Assembly (NCBI GenBank): GCA_018266075.1
Contig: JAFEBB010000003.1
Coordinates: 124,001-188,000, forward strand
Reading direction: 5' to 3'
DNA: 64,000 nt
Source of the DNA: Deltaproteobacteria bacterium
Lineage (GTDB): Bacteria > Myxococcota > Myxococcia > Myxococcales > SZAS-1
A program made the position numbers and the translations under genes. How positions within the stretch are numbered: the first letter of the stretch is position 1; every line of letters starts with the position of its first letter. Below the pieces are notes generated by a model. The model did not search any database. It was not told the DNA's origin and saw only the letters and a list, made by a program, of their open reading frames with translations. Shown here one piece after another: positions 34,314-40,683 of this stretch.

Positions 34314-34637
34314 GTGACCGATTCGATGGTGGTGCCGCTGTCGTCGTATCCGGCGCCACACCCCGGGGCCGGGATCGAGCGGGTGGGGGACCGACTGATG
34401 GCCGCTTCACCCGACGATCACCTGCACCACTTCGTCGAAGAGGACGAGTCGCCCTCGCACACCGCGGAGCGCGTGGTGGAGCTGGCCGACGGCTCCCGCA
34501 CGGTGGCGCAGATCGCCTCGACGATTGTCGAGGAGTTCGAGGGGGCGACGCTGGAGCAGGTTCAAGACGACGTCCGCGCGTTCGTGGGCGCCATGGTGGC
34601 CAAGCAAGTGCTGGTGTTGCACGACCACCCGCTGTAG
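34314..34637 (+). CDS. PqqD-like protein (putative RiPP recognition element)
   Basis: PqqD-fold proteins bind leader peptides and present them to modifying enzymes. The 107-residue product ends in the PqqD pattern: an acidic first strand region 'HFVEEDESPSHTAERVVEL', the turn 'ADGSRTVAQIASTIVEEF', and the last helix 'VQDDVRAFVGAMVAKQVLVL'. The first 30 residues are Pro-rich and not part of the fold; M29 (34398) is an alternative start. It is a stand-alone PqqD rather than a fusion, and no PQQ biosynthesis genes are near. Downstream on the same strand lie a large lipoprotein, a six-cysteine peptide, a kinase and a signal-peptidase-like protein. Together they suggest a peptide-modification locus (inference). 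Confidence 0.82.
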   Translation: MTDSMVVPLSSYPAPHPGAGIERVGDRLMAASPDDHLHHFVEEDESPSHTAERVVELADGSRTVAQIASTIVEEFEGATLEQVQDDVRAFVGAMVAKQVLVLHDHPL

Positions 34638-34695: not shown

Positions 34696-37600
34696 GTGAT
34701 TGCCCGAAACTTCCGAAGCCTTCACTTCGCGCTGGGCGCGATCTTCATTGCCTCGATCTCGTCGTGCTCGTGCGGCAGCTCGTCCGAGAAGAACCCCGGG
34801 GTGAAAATCACCAACCCCACCGCTGGGCAGGTGCTCACGCAAGCGGATGACTCGGACGCCGCCACGCCAGGGATCCAGCACGACGTGATCGTCCACGTCA
34901 CCAACGTGACCAGCAATTCCACGCTCACGTTGACGATCAACGGCACGACGGTCGGAAGCCTTCAGCCGAGCGCGACCCAGGACCAGGGCGAAGACATCAC
35001 CTTCCACAGCGTGCCGTTCCCCGCGGGGCAGGACACGGTCATCGCGACCGTCAAGGACTCGAGCACCAACAAGTCTGGCACCGACTCCAAGACCGTGAGC
35101 GTTACGCCCGCGGCCACGTGCAACTTCACTACGCCGGCCGACGGCGCCACCCTGACCTCCGACGAGGACGCGAGCACCGAGGTCTTCAACCAGAAGGTGC
35201 TTGTGCAGTGTCCGGCGTCGTTGGCGGCCTTGACCGGCACGTTGCAGGTGACAGTGGTCATCGGGAATCACCGGCAGGACGTCTCGCCGCTCACCGCCAC
35301 GCTCGATTCCACGGGCCTCGCCACCTTCGACAAGGCCCAGCTGGGCGAGGGCACCAACGCGATCACCTTCACCGCTGTGGACAGCACCGGCACGACGGTG
35401 GGCTCCGCGAACGAGACCGTCATCGTGAACACCGGCAAGTGCCCGGTGATCCTGGGTGAGCACAACCACGTGATCTACAACGCGGCCGGCGGGACGCCCC
35501 CGGATCCCACCGAGACCCGCCCGGTGATTGCCGACACGGATCCCAACACGCCCGACGTGCAGGCCACGTTCACCGGCTACGTGGACACCGGCGTGTGCCC
35601 CGGCGCGTCGGCGACCATCAGCTTCGACAGCGCGCCGGCGGGCACGGCGACGGTGGACAGCTCCGGCGAGTTCATCTTCAGCAACGTCACCCTCCCCAAC
35701 GGCGACCCGGTGCTCGAGGTGGTGCATGCCACGAGCGGGAGCAAGACTGGCGTGTCGGTGGCGAACACGTATGGCGTGGACTCGGTGATCCCTGTCCTCA
35801 GCATCAGCGCGCCTGCTTCGGGAACGATCACAGATACCGATGGCGGCACCAACGGCGTGAGCGAGCAAGTGACGGTGCACCTCGTCTCGGGCTTCAACGG
35901 CGAGGAGTTTGCGAGCCTCGCAGACAACGGCACGCCGCGCATCGGCCAGACGGCGATCTCTCCTCTGCCGGCAATTCCCGGTGACTGGCCCTTCCCGAAC
36001 CCCGTGATGCTGACCACCGGCCCCCACTCGCTCGTGGCCACGGCGACCCGCAAGCTCGGCAATCAGGGCAACTCGCAGCCCGTGAGTGTGACCGTGCAGC
36101 AGCCGGGCGGCATTGGCCTCACCCTTCTTCAGCCGGGCACGACCAACGTGGTGTGCAACCACGCGAGCGATGAGAACCCGAACACGCAGGACTGTGACCT
36201 GACGATGAAGGTGCAGGCCAACGGCGCGGCCGACGGTGGCAGCGTGGCGTTCTGGTTCGACGACGGCGGCCAGACGACGGTGGCGCTCGACGCCAACCTT
36301 CAGGCCCAGACCCAGTTCCAGCTCCCGCAGGGCCAGCACACCATCGCAGCCGTGGCGAGCAACGGCCAGGCGGCGTCGAACCAGGTCACCGCGGCGATTC
36401 GCGTGGACACCATCGCCCCGGTGCTCACCTGGGTCACCCCTCCGCAGGACGGTGGTCCGAACACGGAGAGCAGCCAGACCTTCAGCGTGACCCTGCAGAC
36501 CGACGCCGAAAACGGCCAGGTGGTCATGGTGACCCTTGATGGCGGCAACGTCGGCTCGGGCCCTGTGGACGGCGGCTTCGCCACGTTCAACGTCGCGGTG
36601 CCCGGCGAAGGTATCGCGCAGTTGCTCGTGGCCAACGTTCAGGACGACGCGGGTAATCCCGCAGTGCCGGCCGTGGTGGGCGTGGACGTCATTGTCGACG
36701 GTGGCTGCGTGATCAACCTCAACGAGCCGAGCACGCTGGTGATCAACGCGAGCACCGATGGCGGGCTGACCCAGACGATCACCGGCAACACGCCGACGCC
36801 CGCATGTGCGAACGGTACCGTGACGTTCCTCGCGGCGACGCCCGCGAGCGGCACGCCGAACCAGGTGGGCACCGCGCAGGCGGTCGGAGGCGCCTTCTCC
36901 TTCACCTACACGTTCACGGACCAGGCCTCGACCCAGTTCACCGCGCAGATGACCAGCCCGAGCGGCAATACGAATCAGGCGTCGTTCAATGTGAACGCGG
37001 ACACGATTCCCCCCGTGATCTCCCTGAATGTGCCGCAGCAGGACGCCAGCGGGAACCTGTACGTGGTGGAGGCCTTGGGCAACCTGAACGTGGTCGCGGG
37101 GGCGCTCGGCTACGCCGCTGACGCGGACGGCAGTACCGCCGGCGCGCAGGTCAACGTGCTCATCAACGTGAGCGGCGTGGGTGACGTCTTTGGTTCGGGC
37201 GGAATGGGTTCGGTGAACATTCTCGAGGGAAGCACGCCGCTCATCACGCAGCCTCTCACGTTTACCCGAAATGACTTCTTCCAGATCGCCTCGCCCACGA
37301 GCGTTCCGGTCCTGACGTTGACGGAGGCGAAGAGCACCACATTCACGCTGGTGGCGACCGATTCGGTGGGCAACACGACCACCGTGAACATTCCGCTTCG
37401 CGTCAAGAGCGTGCCGCCGCCGCAGCCCACGCTCGTGACCACGGATCCGGGCAACGGGCAGTACACGCACGTCAGCAACTACCGACACGCGGACTTCCTC
37501 GTCGTCGCCTCGGATACGGCGGATCCCCAGGGCGACACGTTGGAGTTCGACGTGGGCTTCTCGGCTCCACTCCGATTCGGAAACGGGGTGTTCAACGACG

Positions 37601-38970
37601 GCGTCTTCGACAACACGGGTTACACCACAATCATCAACGAAGGCACCTTCGCCGCTTCGCCGGTGACCGTCACCAACGTCCCACCGCTCAACGACTACTC
37701 ACTCGCGGCCCGAGCCGTCGACTCACTCGGCAACATCTCTCTCATCTCCAACGTGGCCGATATGGACACCCGGTTCCCACGAACGACCATCCCCTACGCT
37801 GGACCGTCAGCGGCTGGTGCGCTCTTTGGCTCAACGATCGCCCTCGGGCACATCAACACCCAGCCGGGCCACACCGCGCTCGACATCGCCGCGTTCGCCA
37901 CCGAGCCAAACAGGGAAGGCTCGGTTCAGGTGATCTACGGCGGCTCGCTCACCACCACCCAGCAGTTCAACGGGCCGTTCACCACGAGCGCCTACTTCGG
38001 CAATCCGATGACTCTGGGTGACGTGAACAACGACGGTGCCGCCGACCTCCTCGTCTACGATAGCGACAGGATCGACGTGTACCTCTCCGACGGCACCACC
38101 CTGCCCACCACGCCGAGCTTCACGCTCACCGGCACGGGCGCAACCGACGCGTACACGCTCGCGGTGGTGCCCGACATCACCGGCGACGGCATCAACGACA
38201 TCGTCATCGGTGATCCGATCGACGGGGCGGGTGGCCAGATCTTCGTGATTCGCGGGCGCGCAAGCTGGCCAGCCTCGGTCGACACCAGCGCCGCGGACGT
38301 CATCATCGACGGCGTCGTCCCAGGCTCGAACTTCGGCAACAACCTTCAGCACGGCACCATCGGGTTCCCCGGGTTTTCCGGCGACACGAGTAACGCGCTC
38401 GTCGTGCCCGCAGCGTCGACCAACATGGTGTACCTCTTCAAGGGAAGCGCGCTGATGGCGAAGGGCCAGGCGGCGACCATCGCCGACGCGATGACGACCT
38501 TCACCACCACCACCGTGCCCTCAAACTCTCGCTACGGGCACGCGCTACTCGCGTACGACATCAACAACGATGGGTTGGAAGACTTGCTCATCGCGGACAC
38601 GGGCCAGCCTTCGCACGTCTTCGCCTACTTGCAGTCGGGAGGCACAGTGGTGGCCGATCCGGCGGCGAGCGCGTATCTCGGCGGGTCGCCCACCAATTTC
38701 GGCTATCAGATGGCCTCGGGCGACCTGAACGGCGATGGCATCGCCGACCTGGTCGTGGGCCGCGGCGTGACGGGAAACGCCCAGGCGCTGAACCTGTTCG
38801 TGGGGCGTGCAGGTGGAATTCCTCAGGGATCCGGTCCAGACTCGGCTGAATACGGTGACCTGCAGTTCGGCACCGACTTCGCCATCGGAGACGTGACGGG
38901 TGACGGGCTGCCCGACATCGTCGTGGGAGAGCCAGACAATGGCAACGGAACCGTCGAAGTCCTCCACTAG
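34696..38970 (+). CDS. Giant lipoprotein, Ig-like repeats and C-terminal FG-GAP repeats
   Basis: This 1,424-residue surface protein has a signal peptide ending in Cys (C24 in ISSC), followed by a Ser/Cys-rich patch. The first about 1,000 residues are beta-rich Ig/Big-like modules with repeated 'VNTGKCPVIL', 'VTFLAATPASG', 'DTIPPVISL' type strands. From about 1,025 on there are FG-GAP/integrin-alpha-like repeats with Ca-binding loops: 'LGDVNNDGAADLLV', 'VPDITGDGINDIVIGDP', 'YDINNDGLEDLLIAD', 'SGDLNGDGIADLVVG' and 'IGDVTGDGLPDIVVGEP'. These are consistent with a seven-bladed propeller. The GTG start has GAGGAG upstream; longer in-frame versions lie inside pqqD in another frame and are unlikely. 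Its 3' end overlaps the six-cysteine peptide gene by 32 bp. Confidence 0.85.
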   Translation: MIARNFRSLHFALGAIFIASISSCSCGSSSEKNPGVKITNPTAGQVLTQADDSDAATPGIQHDVIVHVTNVTSNSTLTLTINGTTVGSLQPSATQDQGEDITFHSVPFPAGQDTVIATVKDSSTNKSGTDSKTVSVTPAATCNFTTPADGATLTSDEDASTEVFNQKVLVQCPASLAALTGTLQVTVVIGNHRQDVSPLTATLDSTGLATFDKAQLGEGTNAITFTAVDSTGTTVGSANETVIVNTGKCPVILGEHNHVIYNAAGGTPPDPTETRPVIADTDPNTPDVQATFTGYVDTGVCPGASATISFDSAPAGTATVDSSGEFIFSNVTLPNGDPVLEVVHATSGSKTGVSVANTYGVDSVIPVLSISAPASGTITDTDGGTNGVSEQVTVHLVSGFNGEEFASLADNGTPRIGQTAISPLPAIPGDWPFPNPVMLTTGPHSLVATATRKLGNQGNSQPVSVTVQQPGGIGLTLLQPGTTNVVCNHASDENPNTQDCDLTMKVQANGAADGGSVAFWFDDGGQTTVALDANLQAQTQFQLPQGQHTIAAVASNGQAASNQVTAAIRVDTIAPVLTWVTPPQDGGPNTESSQTFSVTLQTDAENGQVVMVTLDGGNVGSGPVDGGFATFNVAVPGEGIAQLLVANVQDDAGNPAVPAVVGVDVIVDGGCVINLNEPSTLVINASTDGGLTQTITGNTPTPACANGTVTFLAATPASGTPNQVGTAQAVGGAFSFTYTFTDQASTQFTAQMTSPSGNTNQASFNVNADTIPPVISLNVPQQDASGNLYVVEALGNLNVVAGALGYAADADGSTAGAQVNVLINVSGVGDVFGSGGMGSVNILEGSTPLITQPLTFTRNDFFQIASPTSVPVLTLTEAKSTTFTLVATDSVGNTTTVNIPLRVKSVPPPQPTLVTTDPGNGQYTHVSNYRHADFLVVASDTADPQGDTLEFDVGFSAPLRFGNGVFNDGVFDNTGYTTIINEGTFAASPVTVTNVPPLNDYSLAARAVDSLGNISLISNVADMDTRFPRTTIPYAGPSAAGALFGSTIALGHINTQPGHTALDIAAFATEPNREGSVQVIYGGSLTTTQQFNGPFTTSAYFGNPMTLGDVNNDGAADLLVYDSDRIDVYLSDGTTLPTTPSFTLTGTGATDAYTLAVVPDITGDGINDIVIGDPIDGAGGQIFVIRGRASWPASVDTSAADVIIDGVVPGSNFGNNLQHGTIGFPGFSGDTSNALVVPAASTNMVYLFKGSALMAKGQAATIADAMTTFTTTTVPSNSRYGHALLAYDINNDGLEDLLIADTGQPSHVFAYLQSGGTVVADPAASAYLGGSPTNFGYQMASGDLNGDGIADLVVGRGVTGNAQALNLFVGRAGGIPQGSGPDSAEYGDLQFGTDFAIGDVTGDGLPDIVVGEPDNGNGTVEVLH

Positions 38971-39130
38971 CGGTACGAGGCGGGCCTACGCTGCGCCGCG
39001 CGTGAAGAGCGAGCGGCTCCTGGGCACCGTATACGGGTGCACGCCGTCGACGTGTCCCAACTCCGCGTGCCCGAAGGGCACGACAATCTGCCACGGCTGG
39101 GATACGTCGTGTCAGCCCATCTGCACCTAG
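38939..39130 (+). CDS. Candidate RiPP precursor peptide, 63 aa, six cysteines
   Basis: This is a short gene with a basic Ser/Thr-rich N-terminus (about 1-31) and a compact tail of 32 residues. The tail has cysteines at 34, 39, 44, 51, 58 and 62 (gaps of 4, 4, 6, 6, 3). Residues 17-20 are Y-A-A-P, a YxxP motif like that recognised by the PqqD-fold B1 proteins of lasso clusters, followed by 'RVKSERLLG'. The tail contains many Thr, Ser and Pro but no Asp or Glu at the usual lasso ring positions. GGGAGA lies about eight bases before the ATG at 38939; a GTG at 38900 is possible. It has no signal peptide. Role as a modified peptide is inference; a small disulfide-rich cytoplasmic protein is the alternative. 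Confidence 0.6.
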   Translation: MATEPSKSSTSGTRRAYAAPRVKSERLLGTVYGCTPSTCPNSACPKGTTICHGWDTSCQPICT

Positions 39131-39536
39131 GGCTTTCTCGAGATCCAATCGTGCTTGGCGGCGCGCCAGAGCGCGAACCGAAGAAGCCCGAGTGCCTGCC
39201 ACCTGCGCCGACTCGGCGGCCTCGCAAGCCAAATGGCTGAGCGGACCGGCCTCGCTAGCGGTCGAGCCAGCCCAAGCTTCGAGGCCGCCTGCCGCTCGTA
39301 CGCTCTGGGCGCTCGCGGAGGTCGGCCGGTGAGCCAATTGGGTTGTCCTGCCCGCCCGTCGGGCTGACGCCTCGACCCTCAGGGCAATGACCCTGGCCAA
39401 ATTGGCCGACTTCTCGACCACGCTGGCTCACGTGCCGCGGCAATGGGGAGCTTCGACCGCACACTGGGTCGACGCGTCGGCCAATTGGGTTGCCCTCCCA
39501 GCCAAATCGGCGCCGCAAGCTACACTCGTGGCCGTC
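39131..39536. promoter_or_regulatory. Gene-free 406-bp gap with GCCAAWTTGGC-like palindromes
   Basis: No convincing gene lies here; the reading frames in it have no ribosome binding site or family pattern. It holds a cluster of related short palindromes. These are AGCCAAATGGCT (39227-39238), CCAATTGG (39334-39341, within GCCAATTGGGTTG), GGCCAAATTGGCC (39395-39407), and CCAATTGG again (39481-39488, within a second GCCAATTGGGTTG). A half-matching GCCAAATCGGC lies at 39501-39511. TACACT at 39521-39526, ten bases before the kinase ATG, could be a -10 box for a nearly leaderless transcript. Likely regulatory; the binding protein is unknown. Confidence 0.5.
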
Positions 39537-40280
39537 ATGCCAGTCCGATTGCTCCACGCCCTCTCCACCTCCGACGTCGAGCCCCTCTCCCACCTCGGCT
39601 GGCCCGACGGCCCGTGCACCGAGCGCATCTCCATCCAGATCCTCCGTCCCGCCACCGCCGATCGCCCCCTCGAGCGCGTCCGCTTCACCCGCCCGGGCTA
39701 TTCGGTGGATGCCGAGCTCGACCTCTCCTCCCGCGAGCCCCACCAGATCGGTTCCATCCGCCTCCAGTGCGCCATCGCGGCTTCCACGTTCGGCCAGAGC
39801 GGCCTCCTCATCCACGGCGCGGGGCTGGCGCTCGAGGGCCGGGGTGCCGTCGCCGCGTTCGCGCCCTCCGGCGGGGGCAAGTCCACGCTCTCCAACCTCG
39901 CCGAGCGCTTCATCGGCCTCTCCGACGAGACCGTGCTCCTCGTCCCCGGGCCGCCGCCGCAGCTCTTCGCCACCCCGCTGCGCTCCAGCTCCACCAAGGT
40001 CCCCGAGCCGCGCGTGGATCCGCTGCGAGCGCTGCTCATCTTGGAGAAGTCGCTCGAGCCTTCATTCACCCGGCTCAAGCCCGACGTGGCCCTCAAGCAG
40101 CTCCTCTTGCAGGCCTACAAGCTCCCGCCCGAGCTCGCGCCGCCGGCGCAGGTCTTCAAGCGGGCGGCCAAGCTGGTGGAGAATGTCCCGGCGTACCGCT
40201 TCGCCTTCCCCAAGTCGCCTCTCGCGCAGGACCTCTTGCTCCGCCTCTTCGATGACGAGCTCTCGCCAGAAATTCCGTGA
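39537..40280 (+). CDS. HprK-like kinase (ATP-binding, P-loop)
   Basis: This 247-residue protein resembles the C-terminal kinase domain of HPr kinase and its paralogues found next to PqqD and lasso genes. 'LLIHGAGLAL' (91-100) leads into the P-loop 'FAPSGGGKSTLSNLA' (108-122), followed by 'GLSDETVLL' (127-135), which holds the acidic residue of the HprK site. The first 60 residues match no known domain. There is no membrane segment. The ATG at 39537 was chosen as the first Met ahead of the conserved region; an in-frame extension to 39387 exists but has unusual composition. It overlaps the next gene by 29 bp. A role in phosphorylating the upstream peptide is possible but unproven. Confidence 0.75.
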   Translation: MPVRLLHALSTSDVEPLSHLGWPDGPCTERISIQILRPATADRPLERVRFTRPGYSVDAELDLSSREPHQIGSIRLQCAIAASTFGQSGLLIHGAGLALEGRGAVAAFAPSGGGKSTLSNLAERFIGLSDETVLLVPGPPPQLFATPLRSSSTKVPEPRVDPLRALLILEKSLEPSFTRLKPDVALKQLLLQAYKLPPELAPPAQVFKRAAKLVENVPAYRFAFPKSPLAQDLLLRLFDDELSPEIP

Positions 40281-40683
40281 GCACCTCGGCCTCGACGACG
40301 CCGAGCGCACCGTGCCCACGGCGTCCATGTGGCCCACCATCCGCGCGGGCGACGGCATCCGCTTCCGCCGCGAGCGCCGCACGCCCCGGCTCGGTGAGGT
40401 CTGGGTGGCGGAGCTGGGCCAGGTGCACGTCTGCCATCGGGTCATCTGGGTGAGCGGCGAGCACGCGTGGCTCAAAGGCGACTGGGTGCTCGCGCCCGAC
40501 GGCCGCGTCCCGGTGAAGCAGCTCTTCGGGCCGCTCTCCGCGGTGCGCCGCGGCGACGACTGGCGCCCCACCAATCGCCGGCGCGATCGCGCGATCGGAT
40601 TGGCCCTCTCGCTGATCGGCTCCACCTGGCAGCTGACGCGTGGCGTCCTCGGTCGCGCGCGTCGGCTGGCGTTCGCGCGCTAG
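40252..40683 (+). CDS. S26-type signal-peptidase-like protease (Ser/His dyad)
   Basis: This 143-residue protein resembles a type I signal peptidase core. The nucleophile motif is S25-M-W-P-T-I (SMxPT-I), followed by 'RAGDGIRFRR'. The second catalytic region reads 'HVCHRVIWV' with H62 and then 'WLKGDWVLAPDG'. In bacterial type I peptidases the general base is a Lys; His in an HRV context followed by a (K)GD box is the archaeal/Sec11/SipW arrangement. There is no N-terminal membrane anchor; only a weak hydrophobic stretch occurs at about 114-128. Its ATG lies inside the kinase gene, so they are translationally coupled. It could remove the leader of the six-cysteine peptide (inference). Confidence 0.72.
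   Translation: MTSSRQKFREHLGLDDAERTVPTASMWPTIRAGDGIRFRRERRTPRLGEVWVAELGQVHVCHRVIWVSGEHAWLKGDWVLAPDGRVPVKQLFGPLSAVRRGDDWRPTNRRRDRAIGLALSLIGSTWQLTRGVLGRARRLAFAR

Follow-up and report, generated by a model that had tools for sequence, protein, structure and literature searches.

A candidate LPP-like RiPP precursor gene at the end of an FG-GAP lipoprotein gene in a conserved myxobacterial cassette

A short reading frame at 38939–39130 of the window (the whole 64,000-nucleotide stretch of myxobacterial DNA analysed) starts inside the end of a giant lipoprotein gene, and it raises the questions of whether it is a real gene and, if so, what kind of peptide it specifies. A sequence-only reading had taken it for a short precursor-like gene with a YxxP leader motif and a cysteine-rich tail. 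Our preferred answer, to which we assign a probability of about 0.7, is that it encodes the precursor of a RiPP resembling the linear polyphosphorylated peptides (LPPs), acting with a RiPP recognition element (RRE), an HprK-like kinase, an S26 peptidase and an FG-GAP partner.

The precursor frame and its cassette

The frame is the third of five genes on one strand, arranged in the order RRE, FG-GAP lipoprotein, precursor, HprK-like kinase and S26 peptidase. The features discussed below are as follows.

34314–34637, + strand: PqqD-type RiPP recognition element (discrete RRE, B1-like), 107 aa (PF05402)
34696–38970, + strand: giant FG-GAP-repeat lipoprotein, about 1424 aa (PF01839, 8.7e-20; PF13517, 4.6e-18)
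38925–38930, + strand: Shine-Dalgarno-like GGGAGA, eight bases 5' of the precursor ATG
38939–39130, + strand: RiPP precursor gene, 63 aa (synteny, leader conservation, purifying selection in relatives, whole-genome profile search)
38939–39037, + strand: putative leader from Met1 up to roughly Gly33 (predicted boundary, from a per-position table of the 27 non-redundant members)
38987–38998, + strand: YAAP, Tyr17–Pro20, an instance of the [YW]xxP RRE-binding motif (present in 34/34 loci)
39038–39127, + strand: inferred core, Cys34–Thr63, with six Cys and Ser37 as candidate kinase target
39320–39356 and 39467–39503, + strand: intergenic direct repeat, two 37-nt copies with GCCAATTGGGTTG
39537–40280, + strand: HprK-like (P-loop) kinase, 247 aa (frame open from 39387)
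40252–40683, + strand: S26 (SipW/Sec11-type) peptidase, 143 aa, Ser25-His62-Asp77, candidate leader peptidase

Reading of the sequence places the precursor ATG at 38939 and the end of its stop codon at 39130. The details described beforehand are all present, namely GGGAGA some eight bases ahead of the ATG, the 32 bp shared with the FG-GAP frame (which ends at 38970), the motif Y17-A-A-P20 and the six cysteines at residues 34, 39, 44, 51, 58 and 62. The inferred core begins CTPSTCPNSAC, and its earliest acidic residue is Asp55. A GTG start at 38900, giving 76 aa, is disfavoured because two loci of the nearest family (f8) use the ATG with a Shine-Dalgarno-like GGAGA or GGGAGA at the same −31 offset. 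No sigma-70 promoter or intrinsic terminator pattern was seen at 38900–39700. The 37-nt direct repeat occupies an unusually long gap between precursor and kinase, and a genome search found no further copy in the rest of the organism's own genome.

Upstream, the RRE gene lies 4.3 kb from the precursor, and its product matches PF05402 with an E-value of 9.5e-9 and 35.9 bits (cut-off 23.4). The FG-GAP gene, as read from the sequence, starts with GTG at 34696 behind GAGGAG and carries the lipobox ISSC, then SCG.

Taken by itself, the combination of cysteines and YxxP is only mildly unusual and constitutes weak evidence: at least six Cys within 30 residues occur in 3 of the 166 window ORFs of 45–110 aa, one of these three also carrying [YW]xxP, and the background rate of that motif is 19% of random short ORFs. 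What lifts the frame above chance is the comparative evidence, that is, the motif shared by all 34 loci and the leader profile, both described in the next section.

The precursor family across the order

The sequence-only reading had proposed tblastn with the 63-residue peptide as the way to homologues. Run against 145 genomes from the order, this direct search yielded no credible match; its hits fell in unrelated frames (best E 0.0015) and amounted to noise. Homologues were therefore sought through synteny. PqqD and HprK searches of 142 genomes of the order gave matches in 43 and 44 genomes, respectively, with both on one contig in about 30 genomes, usually 5–10 kb apart. The fetched loci keep the order RRE, FG-GAP protein of 1270–2340 aa, small gene, kinase and S26, and all complete syntenic loci have the FG-GAP gene flanked by RRE and precursor. 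Kinase and S26 genes follow the precursor in most loci of the order; exceptions in a few genera (such as g18) have extra genes between precursor and kinase, or S26 elsewhere, and for certain relatives either the kinase or the S26 gene sits at a different place or was not detected. Carriers include Archangium lansinium, A. violaceum and Citreicoccus inhibens. This RiPP cassette is widespread in myxobacteria and undescribed in the literature searched; a survey of Myxococcota biosynthetic clusters (PMC12766979) makes no mention of RRE, lasso or FG-GAP.

Elsewhere in the order, 33 loci have a small ORF of 45–75 aa that starts −31 to +23 nt relative to the FG-GAP stop. With the window included, all 34 syntenic loci carry [YW]xxP (32 Y, 2 W); none has a Cys before the motif and every tail contains Cys. 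The alignment runs without gaps from Tyr to Tyr+16, with the consensus [KR][KR]xYxxPx[VLI][RK][ST]ExLLVPxLF, and among 27 non-redundant members this conserved block corresponds to Tyr17–Gly33 of the window frame. Beyond Tyr+16, tail length (13–37) and Cys number (2–8) both vary. A conserved CX4CX4CX6CX6CX3C fold was rejected because Cys spacing differs among subgroups. The earlier expectation that the Cys pattern and YAAP would be kept while the N-terminal residues varied was thus correct for the motif and wrong for the cysteines; its direction was reversed, since it is the leader, comprising YxxP and the 13 residues after it, that is conserved. As aligned, the family combines a predicted conserved leader with a predicted variable core, the usual RiPP pattern.

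The ORFs had first been chosen by eye within a small region, and three independent checks were added for that reason. A leader profile, whose training set left out the window and its nearest family, placed the window frame at the top of 981 six-frame segments (E 3.6e-5; runner-up 0.098). Whole-genome profile searches without positional information recovered held-out members in eight genomes, all at an FG-GAP gene end and seven of the eight with an RRE on the same contig. Selection was computed among relatives of the window species: between G077 and G083 the differences at the three codon positions number 3, 3 and 23 (dN/dS 0.03), and most relative pairs give 0.03–0.5, indicating purifying selection, the absence of which the sequence-only reading had named as the finding that would speak against a translated frame. 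From synteny, held-out profiles and third-position changes, we infer that the frame is translated and selected as a protein in the family and, through homology, in the window species.

That the frame arose by chance in the overlap and intergenic region retains next to no probability. Such a reading could appeal to the missing family models (Pfam and NCBIfam match neither the window precursor nor any of 30 family members) and to the fruitless tblastn with the bare peptide across the order, but it is refuted in practice by the synteny of 34 out of 34 homologues and by purifying selection, and it also conflicts with the jackknife profile. The proposal of a short precursor-like gene has accordingly gained syntenic homologues, a profile and a selection signature. 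A position rule follows for the order: the small gene at the FG-GAP gene end is the precursor, though no family model covers any of them.

The start of the tail is also distinctive. Among the 27 non-redundant members, 20 have Ser within the first six tail residues (shuffled mean 8.7) and 26 have Ser or Thr there (14.5 expected from shuffling); none of 5000 shuffles reached either count, related sequences not being independent. These alignments point to a strong Ser/Thr signal at the tail start.

A separate group of WxxP Cys-rich precursors was observed tail to tail with a lone S26 gene in three loci (L188, L189 and L196, corresponding to G052:C30, G053:C6 and G049:C1070), with no RRE or FG-GAP gene seen nearby.

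Maturation enzymes and proposed pathway

An RRE profile built from 13 relatives and compared with the PDB matched TbiB1 (1.9e-7), PqqD (1.7e-6), PbaB1 (2.9e-4) and TfuB1 (3e-3); LppB (9X8Z, identified together with 9X90) scored 0.0097, the lasso B1 proteins thus matching better. The resemblance of Y-A-A-P to the leader motif recognized by PqqD-fold B1 proteins is supported by the RRE in the cassette together with the invariant [YW]xxP. Both downstream enzymes score under curated family cut-offs. The kinase reaches E 6.7e-5 with TIGR04352, under the cut-off of that model; its family keeps SGGGKST (P-loop) and SDE, and its AlphaFold model (pLDDT 74) finds most of its matches among PEPCK and HPr kinase chains, which belong to a single superfamily. 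In the peptidase, Ser25 and His62 are invariant among 11 S26 homologues, while Asp77, in KGD, is kept in window-like members. The S26 profile gives weak matches to human SEC11A/C, and the low-confidence model (pLDDT 69) has top matches mostly to S24/LexA and signal-peptidase folds, none under E 0.001. Archangium-type relatives carry the S26 peptidase as a fusion with a GNAT acetyltransferase (PF00583, 1e-13), as at L137:17175-18137 and L145:17202-18104, where cleavage and N-terminal acetylation are possibly coupled.

By analogy with the LPP and lasso literature, the discrete RRE would capture the precursor through Y17-A-A-P20 and the residues that follow, and the kinase would phosphorylate the core, with Ser37 as candidate site. 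The S26 peptidase would then cut near Tyr32/Gly33 and so free the Cys-rich core, some 30 residues long, from its leader, although the cleavage signature of LPPs (FET before the scissile bond) is absent from the window precursor. As a guess, the core probably forms disulfides outside the cytoplasm, and the FG-GAP lipoprotein, the constant partner, may carry the peptide at the surface, act as its receptor or be its target. The window cassette contains no exporter or NTP transferase. Elsewhere in the same genome, NTP_transf_5 genes, members of an LPP/lasso accessory family, occur on contigs C10 and C26, two of them 6 kb apart at C10:55488-62891 of G000.

How the peptide and the lipoprotein relate admits a further, rather doubtful proposal: the Cys-rich peptide might be displayed on, or decorate, the FG-GAP lipoprotein, taken as a giant beta-propeller protein of the outer surface, and serve there as a ligand for recognition or adhesion, not as a released antibiotic, with the acetyltransferase of Archangium-type systems capping the core N-terminus. 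If true, this would define a Myxococcota RiPP family whose peptide is an obligate partner of an FG-GAP lipoprotein. Through this cassette, a large class of FG-GAP surface lipoproteins that had lacked an explanation becomes linked to a peptide-maturation pathway. A non-RiPP version appears quite improbable; in it, the small protein would serve the lipoprotein as a subunit or chaperone, being matured and possibly joined to it, and the cassette would act as a system for assembling cell-surface protein. That version would account for FG-GAP being the largest and most constant partner, for a precursor start tied to the FG-GAP stop and for a cassette devoid of exporter, but an RRE, a hypervariable tail and a leader peptidase are RiPP logic, and contact between precursor and FG-GAP protein drew no support from the tests run.

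Comparison with known systems

Phosphorylated lasso peptides, namely the bsf system of Bradymonas sediminis (PMC10368454) and paeninodin, share with the window a YxxP/WxxP leader, a discrete B1 RRE and an HprK-like kinase. The bsf cluster encodes a kinase and an NTP transferase and, like the window cassette, adjoins an FG-GAP repeat gene, which its authors presumed to be uninvolved (PMC10368454); the recurrence of FG-GAP genes in window-type cassettes suggests otherwise. Lasso clusters, however, contain B2 and C genes and an Asp/Glu ring residue. No ORF for a B2 transglutaminase-like peptidase or a macrolactam cyclase C was found in the window cassette, the sole Transglut_core3 match in the organism's own genome is sub-threshold and on another contig (C24), and the inferred core has no Asp/Glu at ring positions 7–9. 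Lasso identity was rejected on these grounds, in agreement with the initial view that this is not a normal lasso core, and even a lasso peptide with an unusual ring, for which the YxxP leader, the B1-like RRE and the Bradymonas precedent could be cited, is very improbable.

The SynChlorMet and GeoRSP systems (TIGR04248-04251, TIGR04302-04303) likewise combine a PqqD-like protein, an HprK-like protein (ScmC) and a small peptide, and relatives of the window proteins show weak profile matches to ScmD/ScmC, all far under cut-off. Those systems are defined by radical SAM/SPASM maturases, whereas the window cassette has none. Three loci from other myxobacterial families (L186, L187 and L194) do carry radical SAM genes beside FG-GAP and HprK-like genes, with S26 in L186 and L187, and YxxP peptides occur in cassettes of this type where found; their NCBIfam matches are all under cut-off, and they possibly represent undescribed families. 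A second RiPP-like cassette was observed in the organism's own genome (G000 contig C14:11900-14400; L200:5900-8400), comprising a PqqD/RRE, a radical SAM, an HprK-like gene and a Cys-containing YAPP precursor (MANERKDAPAAAPDVPARRPYAPPSIEQV...CKTSAG...CGNGACQGLGS).

These relatives bear on the idea of an RRE-dependent RiPP defined by chemistry at its cysteines, thioethers or another type of cross-link for instance, introduced by an enzyme (a radical SAM or some other) whose gene lies outside the cassette, with kinase and S26 peptidase as accessories. Radical SAM genes in or beside the related cassettes and in the C14 cassette, together with Cys in all tails, are in its favour, but neither the window cassette nor the Archangium-type relatives that were fetched showed a radical SAM gene, and Cys number and spacing are highly variable; we regard it as unlikely. 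Within a modular YxxP/RRE family, the window system seems to represent a branch without radical SAM.

Among known systems, the LPPs, RiPPs described as restricted to Bacillota (Popov et al. 2026, PMC13381572), come closest. In Paenibacillus, the RRE binds YxxP, an HprK-like kinase phosphorylates Ser3 of the core and a SipW-like peptidase, assisted by the RRE, cuts 16 residues past the Tyr, steps that were shown experimentally (PMC13381572). Both systems have a discrete RRE and an HprK-like kinase without a macrolactam cyclase, YxxP in a conserved N-terminal region ahead of a variable C terminus, a leader extending about 16 residues after the Tyr, Ser at the core start and an archaeal/SipW-type signal-peptidase homologue with Ser-His-Asp, for which the window fold matches are weak but consistent. 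They differ in phylum (Bacillota versus Myxococcota); in the giant FG-GAP lipoprotein gene inside the cassette and the Cys-rich cores, both features of the window system; in the NTP transferase and MsbA-like exporter, found in LPP clusters but not in the window cassette; and in the peptidase-GNAT fusion of Archangium-type relatives, which LPP systems lack. The leader consensus, KKxYxxPxVRSExLLVPxLF in the window against YxxPxVLxHQxIxFETxxS in LPPs, agrees only in YxxPxV and spacing. The window system would work like LPP, yet we do not classify it there, since the cassette lacks the complete leader consensus, the NTP transferase and the exporter. The RiPP logic based on a kinase and a signal peptidase, reported in 2026 as restricted to Bacillota, is hereby extended to myxobacteria.
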